Virus record (IMG/VR): IMGVR_UViG_3300037486_000051
Coordinates: 1 to 36,122 of that record
Length of the DNA stretch: 36,122 nt
Reading direction: 5' to 3' (one strand)
Source of the DNA: a virus
In this document: positions 3,394-31,133 of the stretch, piece by piece
How the letters are laid out: each line of letters opens with the position of its first letter
How positions within the stretch are numbered: position 1 is the stretch's first letter
Translations under genes and position numbers: made by a program
Notes under the pieces: generated by a model
Told to the model about the DNA's origin: nothing
Seen by the model: the letters and a program-made list of their open reading frames with translations, nothing else
The model's database searches: none

Positions 3394-4016
3394 AATTTCT
3401 GCAATATTGATAAGCCACGCCCCTCGGAGGTGTTGAGCGTAACAACGTTATACTTATAATGATTAACGTAGCGCATTAATTCCGCAACGTCTGGTATGTG
3501 TAGCGTATCATGGTAAGCAATAACGCCTCCCTTTGCGATTACGCGCTCAATCTCTTTAAACTCGGGTAAAATATTAGCCCAACTATGGTCGCCGTCAACA
3601 AAGATAAAATCGAAATGCTCACGAGGCATACCTTTAATAACCTTAATAGATTCGCCTAAAATGAAATCCACAGCTACACCGCCACGTTCTAACTTATGCT
3701 TGCGATGGTCGTTAATATCGATGCCAGCATAGTAACCGCCTTGCGGCAAAGCCTCAATCATTTTAACCGAGGTTTCGCCCTCGAATACACCAATTTCTAA
3801 AACGGCTTTAGCACCTTGCATCTTAATTAACGAACCGATAAACTCACATACATCGGGTTCACTATTCCAACCGTGGCGCGGCGTTTCACTAAAGGTTTCG
3901 GTTGTTACTAAAACCTTTTCGGGTAGCGGCTCAAGGGCGTAAACGTAATCCGTTTTAATCGCCTTTTCTTTTTTAGCTTTTGGCTCGGTTGCCTTTTTAC
4001 TTTTTGTTCCCTGCAT
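3390..4016 (-). CDS. Class I SAM-dependent methyltransferase
   Basis: A 208-residue protein with a Rossmann-type SAM site: motif I VLEIGVFEGETS at residues 72-83, an acidic residue after strand 2 (GID, near 100) and FDFIFVDGDHSW at 135-146. This is the layout of the Methyltransf_24/O-methyltransferase group. The first 25 residues are a Lys-rich extension. It overlaps the glycosyltransferase gene by 20 nt, so the two are probably co-translated. The likely target is a sugar or small hydroxyl group, perhaps added by the neighbouring glycosyltransferase to a virion or host surface. Substrate not known. Confidence 0.8.
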   Translation of the reverse strand: MQGTKSKKATEPKAKKEKAIKTDYVYALEPLPEKVLVTTETFSETPRHGWNSEPDVCEFIGSLIKMQGAKAVLEIGVFEGETSVKMIEALPQGGYYAGIDINDHRKHKLERGGVAVDFILGESIKVIKGMPREHFDFIFVDGDHSWANILPEFKEIERVIAKGGVIAYHDTLHIPDVAELMRYVNHYKYNVVTLNTSEGRGLSILQKL

Positions 4017-16279: not shown

Positions 16280-16516
16280 TTATTTGATTACGTTTTGCAA
16301 ATTTACGCCGTGTTTTTTAAGTAGCTTCAACCAATCGAGGCAACGGTTTAAATACATTCGGTAGGCTATCGAGGTGCGCGGGGCGTTCATTAATTGCGCT
16401 GCATAGCTGCGATGCGTTTTAAGCGTGTCGGTGTAATAGACCGCGCCCTCTTTAAACTCAGCTTGCTCGGGTTCGTGGTTAGTCATGTAATCGATTATGC
16501 GTTCTTCGGTACTCAA
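16280..16516 (-). CDS. Hypothetical small protein
   Basis: A 78-residue helical protein. The first possible start is a TTG at 16516 overlapping the DnaB stop; an ATG at 16486 (MTNHEPEQAEFKEGAVYYTD) is the alternative. The C-terminus is basic (DWLKLLKKHGVNLQNVIK). No motif recognised. Follows the helicase in the same operon. Confidence 0.5.
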   Translation of the reverse strand: MSTEERIIDYMTNHEPEQAEFKEGAVYYTDTLKTHRSYAAQLMNAPRTSIAYRMYLNRCLDWLKLLKKHGVNLQNVIK

Positions 16517-17913
16517 AACGGTTCTTTATCAAATTCATTATTCGGCGCGATTGCGCTAATTACTTTCTCAGTTTCGGGCATCGGTAAAAACGAGCTGCCA
16601 GTATTACCGCCCAAATCGCTAAACGCCGTTATCGTGTTGTTATGCTGAAAGCGTACCTCACCCGTCGCGCCTTGACGGTGCTTTTCGAATAAGTAGAAAA
16701 CGTGCTTATCGGTTTGCTCGCCGTCGACCTCATCAATGCCGTAATACTTCGGTCGGTAAATGAATATTACCGTGTCGGCATCCTGTTCTATTGAGCCGCT
16801 TTCGCGTAGGTCGGATAGGATAGGGCGTTTATCGCTTCGCTGCTCAACCTGCCTGCTCAACTGCGCAAGGGCTATAATCGGTATGTTTAATTCCTTTTGC
16901 GCGGCTTTTAACGTTCGGCTTATTTCGGCTACTTCCATTTCACGGTTACCGCCTTTAAAGCCCTCTATCGTCATTAATTGTAAGTAGTCAATTATTGCCC
17001 ACTTGCATCGCCCTTTACGCGCCTCGCGTCGCATAATCCTTATTGCTTCATGTACACCGCATCGCGGTTTGTCGTAGATTAAAATTGGTAGCTTTTCGAT
17101 TTGCCCTATTGACTGTTCGAAGGTATGCAGCTCGGGTTGGTTTAGGTTTCCATCGCGAAGGCGTGCGGCGTTTACTTGCTCGTTACTATTCTGCAATATT
17201 AGGCGCTGGCATAGTTGGCTGTTATTCATTTCCAGGTTAAAGTAAATACCCGGTTCGTTAAAGTTGCAAGCGTGGTAAAGCGCTAACGCCGTTTTACCCA
17301 TCGAGGGGCGACCCGCTAAGATTATTAGCTCGGGGTGAAAGCCGCCCGTAAACCTGTTAACGGAAGCGATACCCGTACTTAATCCGCTCGTTTTCCCGTT
17401 TTGATACATCGCAGCGCGGCGGTAATATGCTTGTCGTTCTTCATCTGCAAGTTGAATTGTTGTTATGATGTTATCGATAGGGCTACCGTCCTCGATTAAT
17501 GAATTGAGGCGTTTAACGATTTCGACGGCTGTATTAACGCCGCCTTTGTTGTTATTGATTCCTAACGTTTCCTCGGTTAATATGGTCGTTATTGAACGCT
17601 TTATGTGTTCGTCTTTGAGTATTGAGATGTACTGGTTAACGGGTTCGGTGTACGATAGGTCGTTACCCCATCCAGAAACGTTCGCAAGGTCGCGAGGGTC
17701 TATTGCTTTTGTGCTTAGTGCATAGCTACCGAGTGTAACGAGTGTCGGTTGCTTGTTATCGGATTGTATCGATTTAATGATTTTAAAGCATTTTAACGCA
17801 AGTTCGTCGTTAAAGTGATACTCTGATAGCTGTGGCACTATTTCACGCGCTGCATCGGGTTCATGCAGCATTATGAAGATTAAAGCCTGTTCGATTTTTG
17901 GTAGGGGTTTCAT
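16513..17913 (-). CDS. dnaB: Replicative DNA helicase, DnaB family
   Basis: A 466-residue protein with an N-terminal helical domain (EQALIFIMLHEPDAAREIV) and a RecA-like motor: Walker A AGRPSMGKTALAL (residues about 200-212), Walker B WAIIDYLQLM, motif H4 LAQLSRQVEQR and DLRESGSIEQDADTVIFIYR. It unwinds DNA at the phage fork as a hexamer; no phage polymerase or primase is visible, so those would come from the host. It has normal DnaB length. A GC-rich hairpin lies 13 nt in front of the ATG. Confidence 0.9.
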   Translation of the reverse strand: MKPLPKIEQALIFIMLHEPDAAREIVPQLSEYHFNDELALKCFKIIKSIQSDNKQPTLVTLGSYALSTKAIDPRDLANVSGWGNDLSYTEPVNQYISILKDEHIKRSITTILTEETLGINNNKGGVNTAVEIVKRLNSLIEDGSPIDNIITTIQLADEERQAYYRRAAMYQNGKTSGLSTGIASVNRFTGGFHPELIILAGRPSMGKTALALYHACNFNEPGIYFNLEMNNSQLCQRLILQNSNEQVNAARLRDGNLNQPELHTFEQSIGQIEKLPILIYDKPRCGVHEAIRIMRREARKGRCKWAIIDYLQLMTIEGFKGGNREMEVAEISRTLKAAQKELNIPIIALAQLSRQVEQRSDKRPILSDLRESGSIEQDADTVIFIYRPKYYGIDEVDGEQTDKHVFYLFEKHRQGATGEVRFQHNNTITAFSDLGGNTGSSFLPMPETEKVISAIAPNNEFDKEPF

Positions 17914-18272: not shown

Positions 18273-18851
18273 TTACTGCATCTTAACCCCCATCGAGGCA
18301 CGTGTTACAACGGTGCTTTGTGGTTTGTTTTCTTTATCGCGTTTGCTCCATGTTACTAACCTTCGCCCAGTATCCCAAGCATCTTGAGCCGTTAGCCTTA
18401 GTTTGCCATTTGCTAAAGGTTCTGCCCAATAGTTAAAAAATTCGTTAAGCATATTTTTATGGTAGCGTTCCGCGTAAGGTGTAATCGATTTAATCAAATC
18501 GTCTTTGCCCCACTTTTTAAAGTTCTCTTTATCCTTATCTTTCTCTTTATCCTTATCCTTATCCTTATAGGCTTCGGTTTCGCTTTTAATTCGCTTCGGT
18601 TTCGCTTCGATTTCGCTTTCGATTCGCTTCGATTTCGGTTTACTTCCGTTTATGTAGTTTATGTTTCCTTTAGTTAAAACAGGCTCTATAAGCGTCCAAA
18701 TAGTTTTTGCAAAGCCTGTTAATTCCTTTTGCTCAAAATCTAACGAATAACTAAAAATCGCATCGTAAATATCCGCTTGCGTTTCTTTTGGTAGGTCTTT
18801 TATCGCTTCATACATCGAGCGGTAAAATATACAAGTATCGCGTTTAGTCAT
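18273..18851 (-). CDS. Replication initiator / helicase loader-like protein
   Basis: A 192-residue protein upstream of dnaB. The N-terminal 65 residues (FYRSMYEAIKDLPKETQADI) match the DUF6291-type domain of phage replication proteins. The C-terminal part (NEFFNYWAEPLANGKLRLTA) resembles the domain that ends DnaD/O-like proteins. Between them is a low-complexity Lys/Asp/Glu/Arg linker (about residues 70-112) encoded by tandem hexamers such as GATAAG. It probably opens the origin or loads DnaB. A structured leader ends 9 nt before the ATG. Confidence 0.65.
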   Translation of the reverse strand: MTKRDTCIFYRSMYEAIKDLPKETQADIYDAIFSYSLDFEQKELTGFAKTIWTLIEPVLTKGNINYINGSKPKSKRIESEIEAKPKRIKSETEAYKDKDKDKEKDKDKENFKKWGKDDLIKSITPYAERYHKNMLNEFFNYWAEPLANGKLRLTAQDAWDTGRRLVTWSKRDKENKPQSTVVTRASMGVKMQ

Positions 18852-18860
18852 AAATAATTT

Positions 18861-18956
18861 GCCCTTTAGCGGCTGCGGTCAGAGCGGCTCGGTTTTTAAC
18901 CTTACCTCGCAGCCCCCAAAGGGCTTAAATGTTTTACACTCATTCAGGCTCTGACC
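18861..18956 (-). promoter_or_regulatory. Structured 5' leader with possible pseudoknot
   Basis: In minus-strand RNA, GCCCTTT (918-924 of the 18 kb block) pairs with AAAGGGC (861-867), enclosing GGCTGCG (908-914) paired with CGCAGCC (871-877). The 5' segment GGTCAGAGC (18948-18956) is fully complementary to GCTCTGACC (18877-18885), which lies mostly in the loop of that stem. The stem ends 9 nt before the ATG at 18851, so folding could block or expose the start. No known riboswitch class is recognised. Confidence 0.55.
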
Positions 18957-18983
18957 TCTGAACGCTTAAAGATAGTAATAAAT

Positions 18984-19778
18984 TTACATATTTACGCCGC
19001 ACATCTCTAAACAGTTTTTACAATTACCGAAGTATGTTTTTTTGTTATACTTAGATACATACGTTTTTTTACCTAAAAACTTTGTCTTATGAATGTTTAT
19101 TACTCCATTCTTAACTAATTGATTGTTTTTAGAGCTTCTAAAAACGGTATCTAAAACATCGTACCTACTAAAGATTTGCGCCTGTATTTCAGAAAACATT
19201 TTACCGTCGTTCGAATCGGTATTGAAATCGAATGAAACAACCCTTAAAACTGATTTACAATAGGGCTTAATTCGTTCGTACTCATTCAAACATAAATCGA
19301 GCTGGCTTTTATCGTCTATCGCAGAAACAGAGGTATTAATACAAATCTTTAGTTTCGATATTCTTTTAAGTTGTTCGTCGGTTAAAACAGTCCAATGCTT
19401 AGTTATTATAACTATTTCCTTTCGACTATCCTCTTTGAACATATCTAACTGTATGTTGCTTTGTATTTTTTCGCATATCGAAATAGTATGCTCCCAGTCT
19501 TCGGACGGGTCGCCCATTGTACCCATCCGAATAAAAGGCATCTTAATTTTACTTATCTCTCTTTTAACTTTGTTTAAATGCTTTTGGCTGGTAAAGTTCT
19601 TTATAACTGTTTTGCTGAAATTATAGCCGTAAATTTTAGCAATGCGCGCGGCGTAACAATCATTATAACAGCCTAACTTATTGTTTTTAGTTCCTGAAGA
19701 ACAGCCAACCGTAGGGTCAATTGAATAAATACCGCGCGCATTTTTTGTTAATGCTATAACATTCGAATAGGTTTTCAT
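18984..19778 (-). CDS. Cysteine-cluster protein, Gp37/Gp68 (DUF5131)-like, possible radical SAM
   Basis: A 264-residue protein. The N-terminal PTVGCSSG...GCYNDCYAARIAKIYG resembles the GC...GCxxCYA cluster of phage Gp37/Gp68 (DUF5131) proteins, which have a radical-SAM-like barrel. The middle strands IRMGTMGDPSEDW and IVIITKHWTVLTD fit the same fold, and a second cluster CKNCLEMC ends the protein. The spacing CxxxC without a third Cys two residues on is not canonical for radical SAM. Its ATG overlaps the stop of the GNAT-methyltransferase gene (TAATG), so both probably act in one DNA-modification route. Confidence 0.6.
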   Translation of the reverse strand: MKTYSNVIALTKNARGIYSIDPTVGCSSGTKNNKLGCYNDCYAARIAKIYGYNFSKTVIKNFTSQKHLNKVKREISKIKMPFIRMGTMGDPSEDWEHTISICEKIQSNIQLDMFKEDSRKEIVIITKHWTVLTDEQLKRISKLKICINTSVSAIDDKSQLDLCLNEYERIKPYCKSVLRVVSFDFNTDSNDGKMFSEIQAQIFSRYDVLDTVFRSSKNNQLVKNGVINIHKTKFLGKKTYVSKYNKKTYFGNCKNCLEMCGVNM

Positions 19779-28524: not shown

Positions 28525-31133
28525 TTGATTTCTATTTGGTAGTATGATAAGATGGTTGAATCTCCTGCTGCTGCGTTCTGAATTGCAAAAATGATGTATT
28601 GATTCTGAGCCCAGTCGATGTTTGAATTGGTTAATGTAGAAGTACCGATAACCGCATCACTTTGAATTGTCCCATTAGCTTGAACCGTTTGCGTATTAGT
28701 TGCTGTTTTAACGATTGCAGTTCTGTCTATTCCATTATATATCTGACTTATTAATGTAGTTGCAGATGTTATAATAAGCGTTGGCGCAGGGGTTACAATT
28801 GAGTCGGCAGTATTCACATATATTCTAAGCGTTGTACCGCCTGCTGTTCCAGTCTTCCCTACCCTTGCTTTAATCTCAATAATGTTACCTACTGCTATTG
28901 TATTTGCAGGAATCAGCACAGATACCACCTTGTTGTTGTTGGTGTTGCCAGTTACCGCTGTTTGATTATTTAGGTCTTTATAAATCAATGGCAAAGTCGG
29001 GAATGTTGCAAGTGTGCCGTTCCCTCTCACGTATTGCGAGGTCGTGCCGCTTGGTGTATCGAACTTTCCATTGAATGCTGTCCAATCTGCCGAGCTTAAT
29101 GCGCCCCGATTTGTTGCGCTTGCCGTTGGAAGGTTGAACGTATGCGTTGACGTTGCCGAGCTGATTCCGAAATCCGTGCCAGCCGTTCCAGTTGCAAAGT
29201 TCTGCACTTGTGCGGTCAAGCCGTTTAGTGCGTTTAGCCCTGTGGTGAAGGTGGTGATTACTTGACAGAGGTTGTTATCTTCAGTATGCAGCGTAATGGT
29301 TCGCCCCGATGTGGTTACGAAAATGCGTATTGCGAGCCTATCGGTTGCAAGCAAAACCGTGCTTGGTACTGCAAGCGCACTGACGTATAAATCAACCACC
29401 GTGCCGCCTGTAATCGCTTCGGGGTTTGTAGCACCTGAAGATATGAGCGTAAAGGTTGAGCCATCGTACTTATATAATTCAATGTAAAAGCTCGGATTTC
29501 CACCGCCACTCGAAGCATTAAAATAGGTTTCGAAGTTCCAATTGCCCGAAGGGATTGCTAAAAGATTTGGGTCACCTGCATCTGTTATAAATTGCGCGAT
29601 GTAGCCATTGCCTTGCGCGTTTGTTCGCGTGAAGTTCGTACCACCACCAAGCACAGGCACGCGATTCATCTCATAGTAGGTATTGCCACCGAACGTGCCT
29701 TGGTTAACCGAGCCGTTTAGGTAGTAGCTAACCGATGCACCGCCACCACCTCCAAGAGGAAAGTTAGCAAGGCTTCCATCGCCGCGAACGTACTGGCTCA
29801 CTACTCCGTTTGCAGTTATATCCACGCTCGGCGTAGTGGTATTATTCGGCACGTTAACGCTGAACGCTGGGTTAGTCGGGTTCGGAACGGTTGCCGCTAC
29901 CGATGTGACCGTGCCATTGGTTAAAGTTGGAAACGGCGTAGGCGTTCCCGTCCCATCGAGATAGTCCGAGCTTGTTCCTGTTGGCGTATCGAATTTGTTA
30001 CTAAATGAAGTAAAGTCCGCAGAAGTCAAGTAGCCATCATCGAACAAGTTGGCTGGCTGTATGCTGATATCAGGCGTAGCGCCACCCGTAGAACTTAGCG
30101 GCGCGGTTGCGGTTACATCTTCAACAATTGTAGCGGGCAGAACGGGTATAGTAGGTTTGTTTAGGATTTCAGCAACGCCACTTACGGCATTCCAATCGCT
30201 ATTAACTTGAGCAGCTGGTATTGTTGGCTTATTTAATATTTGATTATTGCCGCTCGTTGCGTTCCAGTTTGAGGGTTGTTCAACAAGCGGAAAGCCCGCC
30301 CCGAGGTTTACCCAATACGTCGTGTTTGTTGGCAGTATTGAATCGTTATTAGCGATGCAACGATAGACGTTACCATTGTACCAAACTACGTTACCAATTA
30401 AATACTGATTGCCCGTAGAGCTTAAATGGTCATTTGTGAAAGGTAGCGCTAACAAAGTACCACCCCCACCCCCACCGCCTACGGCTATTAACGGGTCGCT
30501 CGGTGTACCGTTTCCGATTATCGTAACCCCGTCAACCGCAACCTCGGTTAAGCAAGGTGTACACGGTAAAAAGTCGGGTGGTAAAGGAATGTCGCCCGTG
30601 TTACAAATATCGTAGCACGTATCCTCTGAGCCGCTAACAATCTCAACCTCTAATTCAATTACAACCGTGGCAAACTCGAAATTAGGTGGTAAGGTTTTAT
30701 CGCCCACCGTGTAGCCGTTCGGGATTACTTCATAGCTTACAACGTCGATAACGTCTTTAAATCCATAATCGCGCCCGCTTACTAACTTATAAACCCGCGA
30801 CGCTACCCAGTCGCCCGCATCTTCGCCGTCGCAGGGTAAGTGCGATTTTCGAACTATTGCATAAGCCGAAATGTTAAATTTCGTCGAATACATTTGTTTG
30901 CACCCGCTAACCCGTAGGCTATCGATTTTCGAAATGTTTACCTTACCACGCTTCGCCCAAAATAACGTACCCTGTTTAGAATCGTAATCCGTTACGGGTA
31001 TCGCTTGCCCGTCGCCTATGTAATAAATCCATCCCTTATCGCCTGTAAGCTCGCATAAACCATAAATGCGGTCGAATATATTGCTTACCTCAATTCGTTG
31101 GTTTAAACGGTCTATAATGCTTTTTAAAATCAT
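28521..31133 (-). CDS. Tail fibre with structural N-terminal docking domain
   Basis: An 870-residue chimeric protein. Residues 1-200 are a structural module with paired Cys (CYDIC, CTPCL), probably docking to the tail. A run of eight glycines follows, then a small Trp/Tyr module (VVWYNGNVYRCIANNDSILP) like a CBM5/12-type chitin or glycan binder. Two copies of a SxWNAxSGxxxILNKPTIP repeat, common in phage fibres, come next. Further on are paired repeats (SADFTSFSNKFDTPTGTSS and SADWTAFNGKFDTPSGTTS), a jelly-roll-like segment and a beta-rich end. The repeats are plausible recombination points for host-range change. Confidence 0.7.
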   Translation of the reverse strand: MILKSIIDRLNQRIEVSNIFDRIYGLCELTGDKGWIYYIGDGQAIPVTDYDSKQGTLFWAKRGKVNISKIDSLRVSGCKQMYSTKFNISAYAIVRKSHLPCDGEDAGDWVASRVYKLVSGRDYGFKDVIDVVSYEVIPNGYTVGDKTLPPNFEFATVVIELEVEIVSGSEDTCYDICNTGDIPLPPDFLPCTPCLTEVAVDGVTIIGNGTPSDPLIAVGGGGGGGTLLALPFTNDHLSSTGNQYLIGNVVWYNGNVYRCIANNDSILPTNTTYWVNLGAGFPLVEQPSNWNATSGNNQILNKPTIPAAQVNSDWNAVSGVAEILNKPTIPVLPATIVEDVTATAPLSSTGGATPDISIQPANLFDDGYLTSADFTSFSNKFDTPTGTSSDYLDGTGTPTPFPTLTNGTVTSVAATVPNPTNPAFSVNVPNNTTTPSVDITANGVVSQYVRGDGSLANFPLGGGGGASVSYYLNGSVNQGTFGGNTYYEMNRVPVLGGGTNFTRTNAQGNGYIAQFITDAGDPNLLAIPSGNWNFETYFNASSGGGNPSFYIELYKYDGSTFTLISSGATNPEAITGGTVVDLYVSALAVPSTVLLATDRLAIRIFVTTSGRTITLHTEDNNLCQVITTFTTGLNALNGLTAQVQNFATGTAGTDFGISSATSTHTFNLPTASATNRGALSSADWTAFNGKFDTPSGTTSQYVRGNGTLATFPTLPLIYKDLNNQTAVTGNTNNNKVVSVLIPANTIAVGNIIEIKARVGKTGTAGGTTLRIYVNTADSIVTPAPTLIITSATTLISQIYNGIDRTAIVKTATNTQTVQANGTIQSDAVIGTSTLTNSNIDWAQNQYIIFAIQNAAAGDSTILSYYQIEIK

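Follow-up and report, generated by a model that had tools for sequence, protein, structure and literature searches.

In the I-complex plasmids, the leaders of the initiator genes (repZ of ColIb-P9, repA of IncB and IncL/M) carry a 5′ hairpin whose loop pairs near the start of the initiator gene, and the variable loop bases of this pseudoknot carry specificity and decide incompatibility (PMC10724649). Attenuators and terminator-platform riboswitches, such as the pT181 repC attenuator, are likewise structured leaders, in which a stem and a U-run lie directly before the gene. Leader RNAs of the c4-like kind include the CI RNA of phage P4. The c4 RNA of phages P1 and P7, with complementary segments that differ between relatives, determines heteroimmunity in these phages (PMC12197685).

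The window analysed here is a 36,122-base virus record that encodes portal, terminase, tail and endolysin proteins as well as DnaB, and on its minus strand it contains a leader (18861–18964) whose predicted fold is an H-type pseudoknot. The leader lies between a 264-residue open reading frame, which ends at 18984, and an ATG at 18851. The first hairpin, P1, has 7 bp (CGTTCAG, 18958–18964, with CTGAATG, 18941–18947), and its loop holds the 5′ arm of the pseudoknot (GTCAGAGC, 18948–18955), which forms 8 bp with a 3′ arm (GCTCTGAC, 18878–18885) lying directly before the 3′ strand of P3. Two stacked 7 bp stems follow, P2 (GCCCTTT, 18918–18924, with AAAGGGC, 18861–18867) closing outside P3 (GGCTGCG, 18908–18914, with CGCAGCC, 18871–18877). 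P3 in turn encloses the hairpin P4 (18886–18906), in which GGT (18904–18906) pairs with GCC (18886–18888) and an inner GG (18900–18901) with CC (18891–18892). A first-pass annotation of the window had described two 7 bp stems ending 9 nt before the ATG, together with a nine-nucleotide segment complementary to their loop, and these features are present as P2, P3 and GGTCAGAGC (18948–18956), the exact complement of GCTCTGACC (18877–18885). The outermost G–C pair of this match competes with the closing pair of P3, making 8 bp the safer count. The annotation missed that the segment is itself the loop of hairpin P1, as well as P4 and the promoter-like box just upstream. Its opinion that the pairings are unlikely to arise by chance is borne out by the stability of the nested part (folding z = −3.85; none of 200 shuffles equally stable) and by a scan for the architecture alone, which gave 158 matches in 5.6 million strand-bases of collected loci, themselves enriched in relatives, against one in 1.24 million shuffled bases, a control about a fifth the size; covariation settles the matter.

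Relatives were located by protein search combined with short sequence patterns, and the counts of loci obtained from the patterns are minimum values. A covariance model built without the pseudoknot and run on the collected loci matched at least 71 sense-strand copies of the leader (E of 4e-13 or better), in all 71 of which the P1 loop carries 8 nt exactly complementary to the 3′ arm. The elements in the covariation set of 62 sequences and in the allele survey had been picked with the knot present, a point that the knot-less model rechecked. Among these 62 distinct leaders 97.4% of cells are paired, and the covariation score is 0.360, compared with 0.139 for shuffles and at most 0.074 for slid partners. 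The knot is Watson–Crick in all 496 cells (100%), with no G–U pair; double changes are seen in five of its eight pairs and one pair uses all four Watson–Crick types. Its 3′ arm is supported both by this covariation and by the matches to the knot-less model. P1 and P2 are paired in 97.0% and 95.9% of cells, respectively, each with double changes in five of seven pairs, P3 is paired in 100% and the P4 pairs in 99.5% and 81.3%, again with double changes. Within the nested stems G–U cells outnumber A–C cells by 100 to 23, which identifies the folded molecule as the sense RNA. Linkers of exactly 2 and 0 nt separate P1 from the knot in 62 of 64 leaders, as in the layout of a classical H-type pseudoknot. 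The 62 leaders are related by descent, so that the numbers of changes are not numbers of independent events; the controls, together with 14 knot alleles that recur on different backgrounds, leave little doubt that the predicted fold, pseudoknot included, covaries. The first-pass annotation had offered to give up its proposal if covariation were absent, and the signal is strong.

The same order of parts is found with different sequences in a TTTACG type, a CACCCTATGGTGACTGAG type and the types of loci L025/L253, L304–L310, L308/L312 and L311–L314. Whole records carry a single copy in 29 of 30 cases. The exception, a 52 kb record (G016; IMGVR_UViG_3300044695_002763), has copies at 3498–3615 and 38214–38326, which are 34.7 kb apart, differ in allele and type and each precede a DUF6291-like gene; this record may be chimeric, joined from two phages, or may genuinely carry both copies. 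No match to the element was obtained from Rfam 15 at the gathering score, and at E values of up to 10 the sole match was unrelated, on the other strand and outside the element. A DNA similarity search of cultured phages and plasmids returned no relatives of the leader, viral scans with over-strict patterns gave no matches and no comparable leader RNA is described in the literature searched. The comparisons point to a putative RNA switch, hitherto undescribed, ahead of the DNA-copying genes of a large phage group.

In the window, the first gene behind the leader (18273–18851, minus strand) encodes a 192-residue DUF6291 protein (PF19808; E = 2.7e-12) and is followed in the same operon by a gene for the replicative helicase DnaB (16513–17913, minus strand; PF03796; E = 6.1e-79). 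The first-pass annotation called this first gene replication initiator-like. The gene order agrees with that label; the predicted structure, of low confidence (mean pLDDT of 60), gave no fold match, so that `initiator' is a name taken from gene order, by which the DUF6291 protein would be a replication initiator. The region encoding its linker (18523–18646) contains imperfect tandem repeats with units of 11/22/33 and 6/12/18 bases; when such repeats lie inside an initiator gene, they may serve as the origin of replication. The open reading frame just upstream of the leader (18984–19778) has no PHROGs or Pfam match.

Among the relatives the first gene differs, encoding a DUF6291 protein, a protein of 64–72 residues, a 229-residue protein with no Pfam match, an HNH-like protein or others. 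An initiator-like gene lies within 3.5 kb downstream in 73 of 79 distinct elements, a count in which some queries were the elements' own first genes, and DnaB lies downstream in 68 of the 79, a count free of this. Where a DUF6291 gene starts without a leader, the leader is often found one small gene further upstream. A leader that stays while the first gene varies, or that sits one gene up, belongs to the replication operon and not to one protein, and its indifference to which gene comes first speaks against a simple autoregulatory role for the product of that gene. The carriers are probably phages of Bacteroidota, given the promoter type and their distant protein relatives, which are Bacteroidota phages such as those of Riemerella and Cellulophaga. 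No integrase was found in carriers using PF00589 or PF07508 (20 records each, possibly fragments).

The transcription signals flank the fold on both sides. Upstream of P1 lies a −7 box, TATCTTTA (18967–18974, minus strand), of the Bacteroidota sigma-A consensus TAnnTTTG, and TAnnTTT[GA] occupies this position in 62 of 63 leaders against a background of 2.7%. In Flavobacterium the box spans −12 to −5 (PMC9723704), which would place the transcript start of the window near 18962, at the foot of P1 and upstream of 18956, the limit that the first-pass annotation had set for it. Between P2 and the ATG at least six of 8 nt are T in 61 of 63 leaders, and a T-run of five or more is present in 84% of leaders compared with 4.9% of the starts of the remaining ORFs of these loci. 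A stable stem and U-run before the gene, as in an intrinsic terminator, is accordingly a feature of 61 of 63 relatives, most of them with a long U-run, but is weak in the window, whose own tail (AAATTATTT, 18852–18860, minus strand) fills the gap between P2 and the ATG and is among the poorer U-runs; termination in this copy may therefore be inefficient. A generic terminator scan restricted to loops of 3–8 did not report the leader stem, which is interrupted and has a long loop. An antisense promoter of the TAnnTTTG type was found in one of 62 leaders (background 5.8%). No leader peptide is conserved: 12 of 62 leaders have no ATG open reading frame, ten more have one of fewer than five residues and the lengths vary.

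The conserved U-run after the P2 stem favours transcription attenuation, leading us to propose, with about an even chance of being right, that the leader is a cis-acting transcription attenuator of the phage replication operon. Transcription would begin at P1 from its own sigma-A-type promoter, and the P1 loop would pair with the strand emerging 60–70 nt later to form an H-type pseudoknot stacked on P3. P3 and P2 would then close into a stem, its formation helped by the stacked knot, and with the U-run following, many transcripts would stop just before the first ATG, giving a leader RNA of about 105 nt. If the knot or P3/P2 were kept from forming, the polymerase would read into the initiator and DnaB genes. 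Sequence comparison establishes the promoter box, all of the helices and the pseudoknot, the U-run of the relatives and the position at the head of the operon; from these we infer that transcripts terminate, that they do so conditionally and that the knot promotes termination. When prefixes of increasing length are folded, P1 appears first; most types next form a small hairpin from the 5′ arms of P2 and P3, the knot pairing comes after it and P3/P2 closes last, a plausible two-state order as far as thermodynamic rather than kinetic folding and a hairpin that is not universal can suggest one. A GCCC/GGGC hairpin, considered as a mutually exclusive antiterminator fold, does not appear to be universal: most types have it, but in the remotest ones it is faint or lacking. 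The recurrence of the architecture in unrelated sequence types counts in favour of attenuation, while the U-rich stretch, which could also serve translation, counts against it. Translation control is indeed the main rival: the pseudoknot beside the start codon might expose or hide the ribosome site of the first gene, a possibility that we regard as real but on the improbable side. The fold ends close to the ATG in the window, the distance from P3 to the ATG varies narrowly in relatives (19–31 nt) and the repZ and repA leader pseudoknots of I-complex plasmids provide a precedent (PMC10724649). However, a conserved U-run is unlike other ORF starts in these loci, the leader is constant while first genes differ and a conserved leader peptide is lacking. 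What stands of the control suggested by the first-pass annotation is that a pseudoknotted sense-strand RNA heads the initiator operon; gating of translation by ligand, protein or temperature is unsupported as stated, and no tested feature of the leader indicates temperature or ligand sensing.

The knot also changes unusually fast, which bears on what else the RNA might do. Between leaders with nearly identical downstream genes (fourfold divergence of <0.1) the knot differs by 0.27 per base pair, the rest of the element by 0.085 per site and fourfold sites by a mean of 0.056, and the knot is already different in 12 of 28 element pairs with no more than three other differences of 109. Each knot change takes two substitutions, so that the rate has the look of selection favouring new specificities; the remainder of the element is likewise above the fourfold sites, however, and alleles may thus have been imported by recombination. 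Rapid change that is exactly compensated suggests that RNA–RNA recognition specificity matters, for example between leader molecules of the same phage, and the outpacing of synonymous sites hints that each allele might recognise itself, much as plasmids do in incompatibility. The leader of about 105 nt, once terminated, could be imagined as a stable small RNA acting on same-allele leaders of other genomes, limiting itself or excluding co-infecting relatives, or on another target. This we consider doubtful, and equally doubtful that virulent phages carry an RNA self-recognition tag, with leader RNAs of the same allele restraining each other's replication and those of different alleles ignoring one another. 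Such action would explain the diversification and speed of the knot, and is in keeping with arms that are always exact complements free of G–U, with the 14 alleles on different backgrounds and with the precedents of c4 RNA and plasmid incompatibility. On the other side, the two arms, being parts of a single molecule, would find each other in cis before any other partner, the knot rate can be raised by recombination, no antisense promoter of the same kind is present and copies of the arms elsewhere in carrier genomes show no clear excess (25 seen, 16.5 expected). Own-arm 7-mers within 300 nt downstream number five compared with 2.9 for other alleles, and the window has no third copy besides the two arms. 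With no integrase match in the 20 carrier records searched with each family, there would also be no lysogen to protect, and lysogenic immunity was rejected on these grounds. We think it very unlikely that the transcript, in the manner of RNA II of ColE1 plasmids, primes or activates an origin beside the initiator gene: the single copy adjoins the initiator and the repeats in that gene could be an origin, but the stem and U-run just before the ATG suggest gene control and no primer processing signal is known. A DNA-level element, either paired operator sites or a cruciform, is the least credible; although the arms form a perfect inverted repeat without G–U, the nested stems covary with a sense-strand excess of G–U over A–C, the H-type linkers are constant and the promoter and U-run orient the element as a transcript.

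Taken as a candidate attenuator, the leader is nearest in design to the I-complex initiator-leader pseudoknots and to the c4 RNA of P1 and P7. As in the former, a hairpin loop pairs with a strand lying ahead of the start of the initiator gene, the initiator role being assigned here by gene order; the leader differs in having neither a conserved leader peptide nor an antisense promoter of the TAnnTTTG type, in the U-run after the stem, in belonging to phages and not plasmids and in showing no sequence similarity in plasmids. With c4 it shares complementary segments that differ between relatives, but a third, target copy of the arm at the start codon or elsewhere is missing and no integrase was found in the carrier records examined. 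Attenuators and terminator-platform riboswitches share the stem and U-run directly before the gene; here, there is no Rfam match or antisense promoter of the TAnnTTTG type and the fast-changing knot is unlike a ligand-binding core. As some defining features of the I-complex leaders and c4 RNA are present and others are absent, the element is assigned to neither. It would constitute a widespread undescribed RNA family placed at the point where phages of a major bacterial phylum switch on replication, and its fold, together with the pseudoknot, is so strongly marked by covariation that it can be settled ahead of any experiment. With the knot alleles, one can ask directly whether specific RNA recognition is able to keep competing virulent phages apart, as it does plasmids.

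A separate leader is present in the temperate Riemerella phages GRAP2, CRP6, RAP44, PT15, CRP34, CRP19 and PJA1 (loci L241:23592–23780, L242:15203–15400, L245:13723–13847 and 30442–30556, and L246–L250). It has a promoter, a 15-nt 5′ arm with an exact complement and a terminator-like stem with a U-run, and the arm recurs for a third time (12–13 nt) at the start codon of the gene that follows. The genes downstream encode a small protein and an antirepressor. There are five arm alleles, in which all three copies change together, and genomes in which two of these leaders were found have a different allele in each. By its sequence, this leader looks like a c4-type antisense immunity RNA. A record labelled as Shigella phage Henu10 (OQ791282.1) gives a match to it that is identical in score and record coordinates to that of Riemerella phage PT15, and the Shigella host label is probably wrong.
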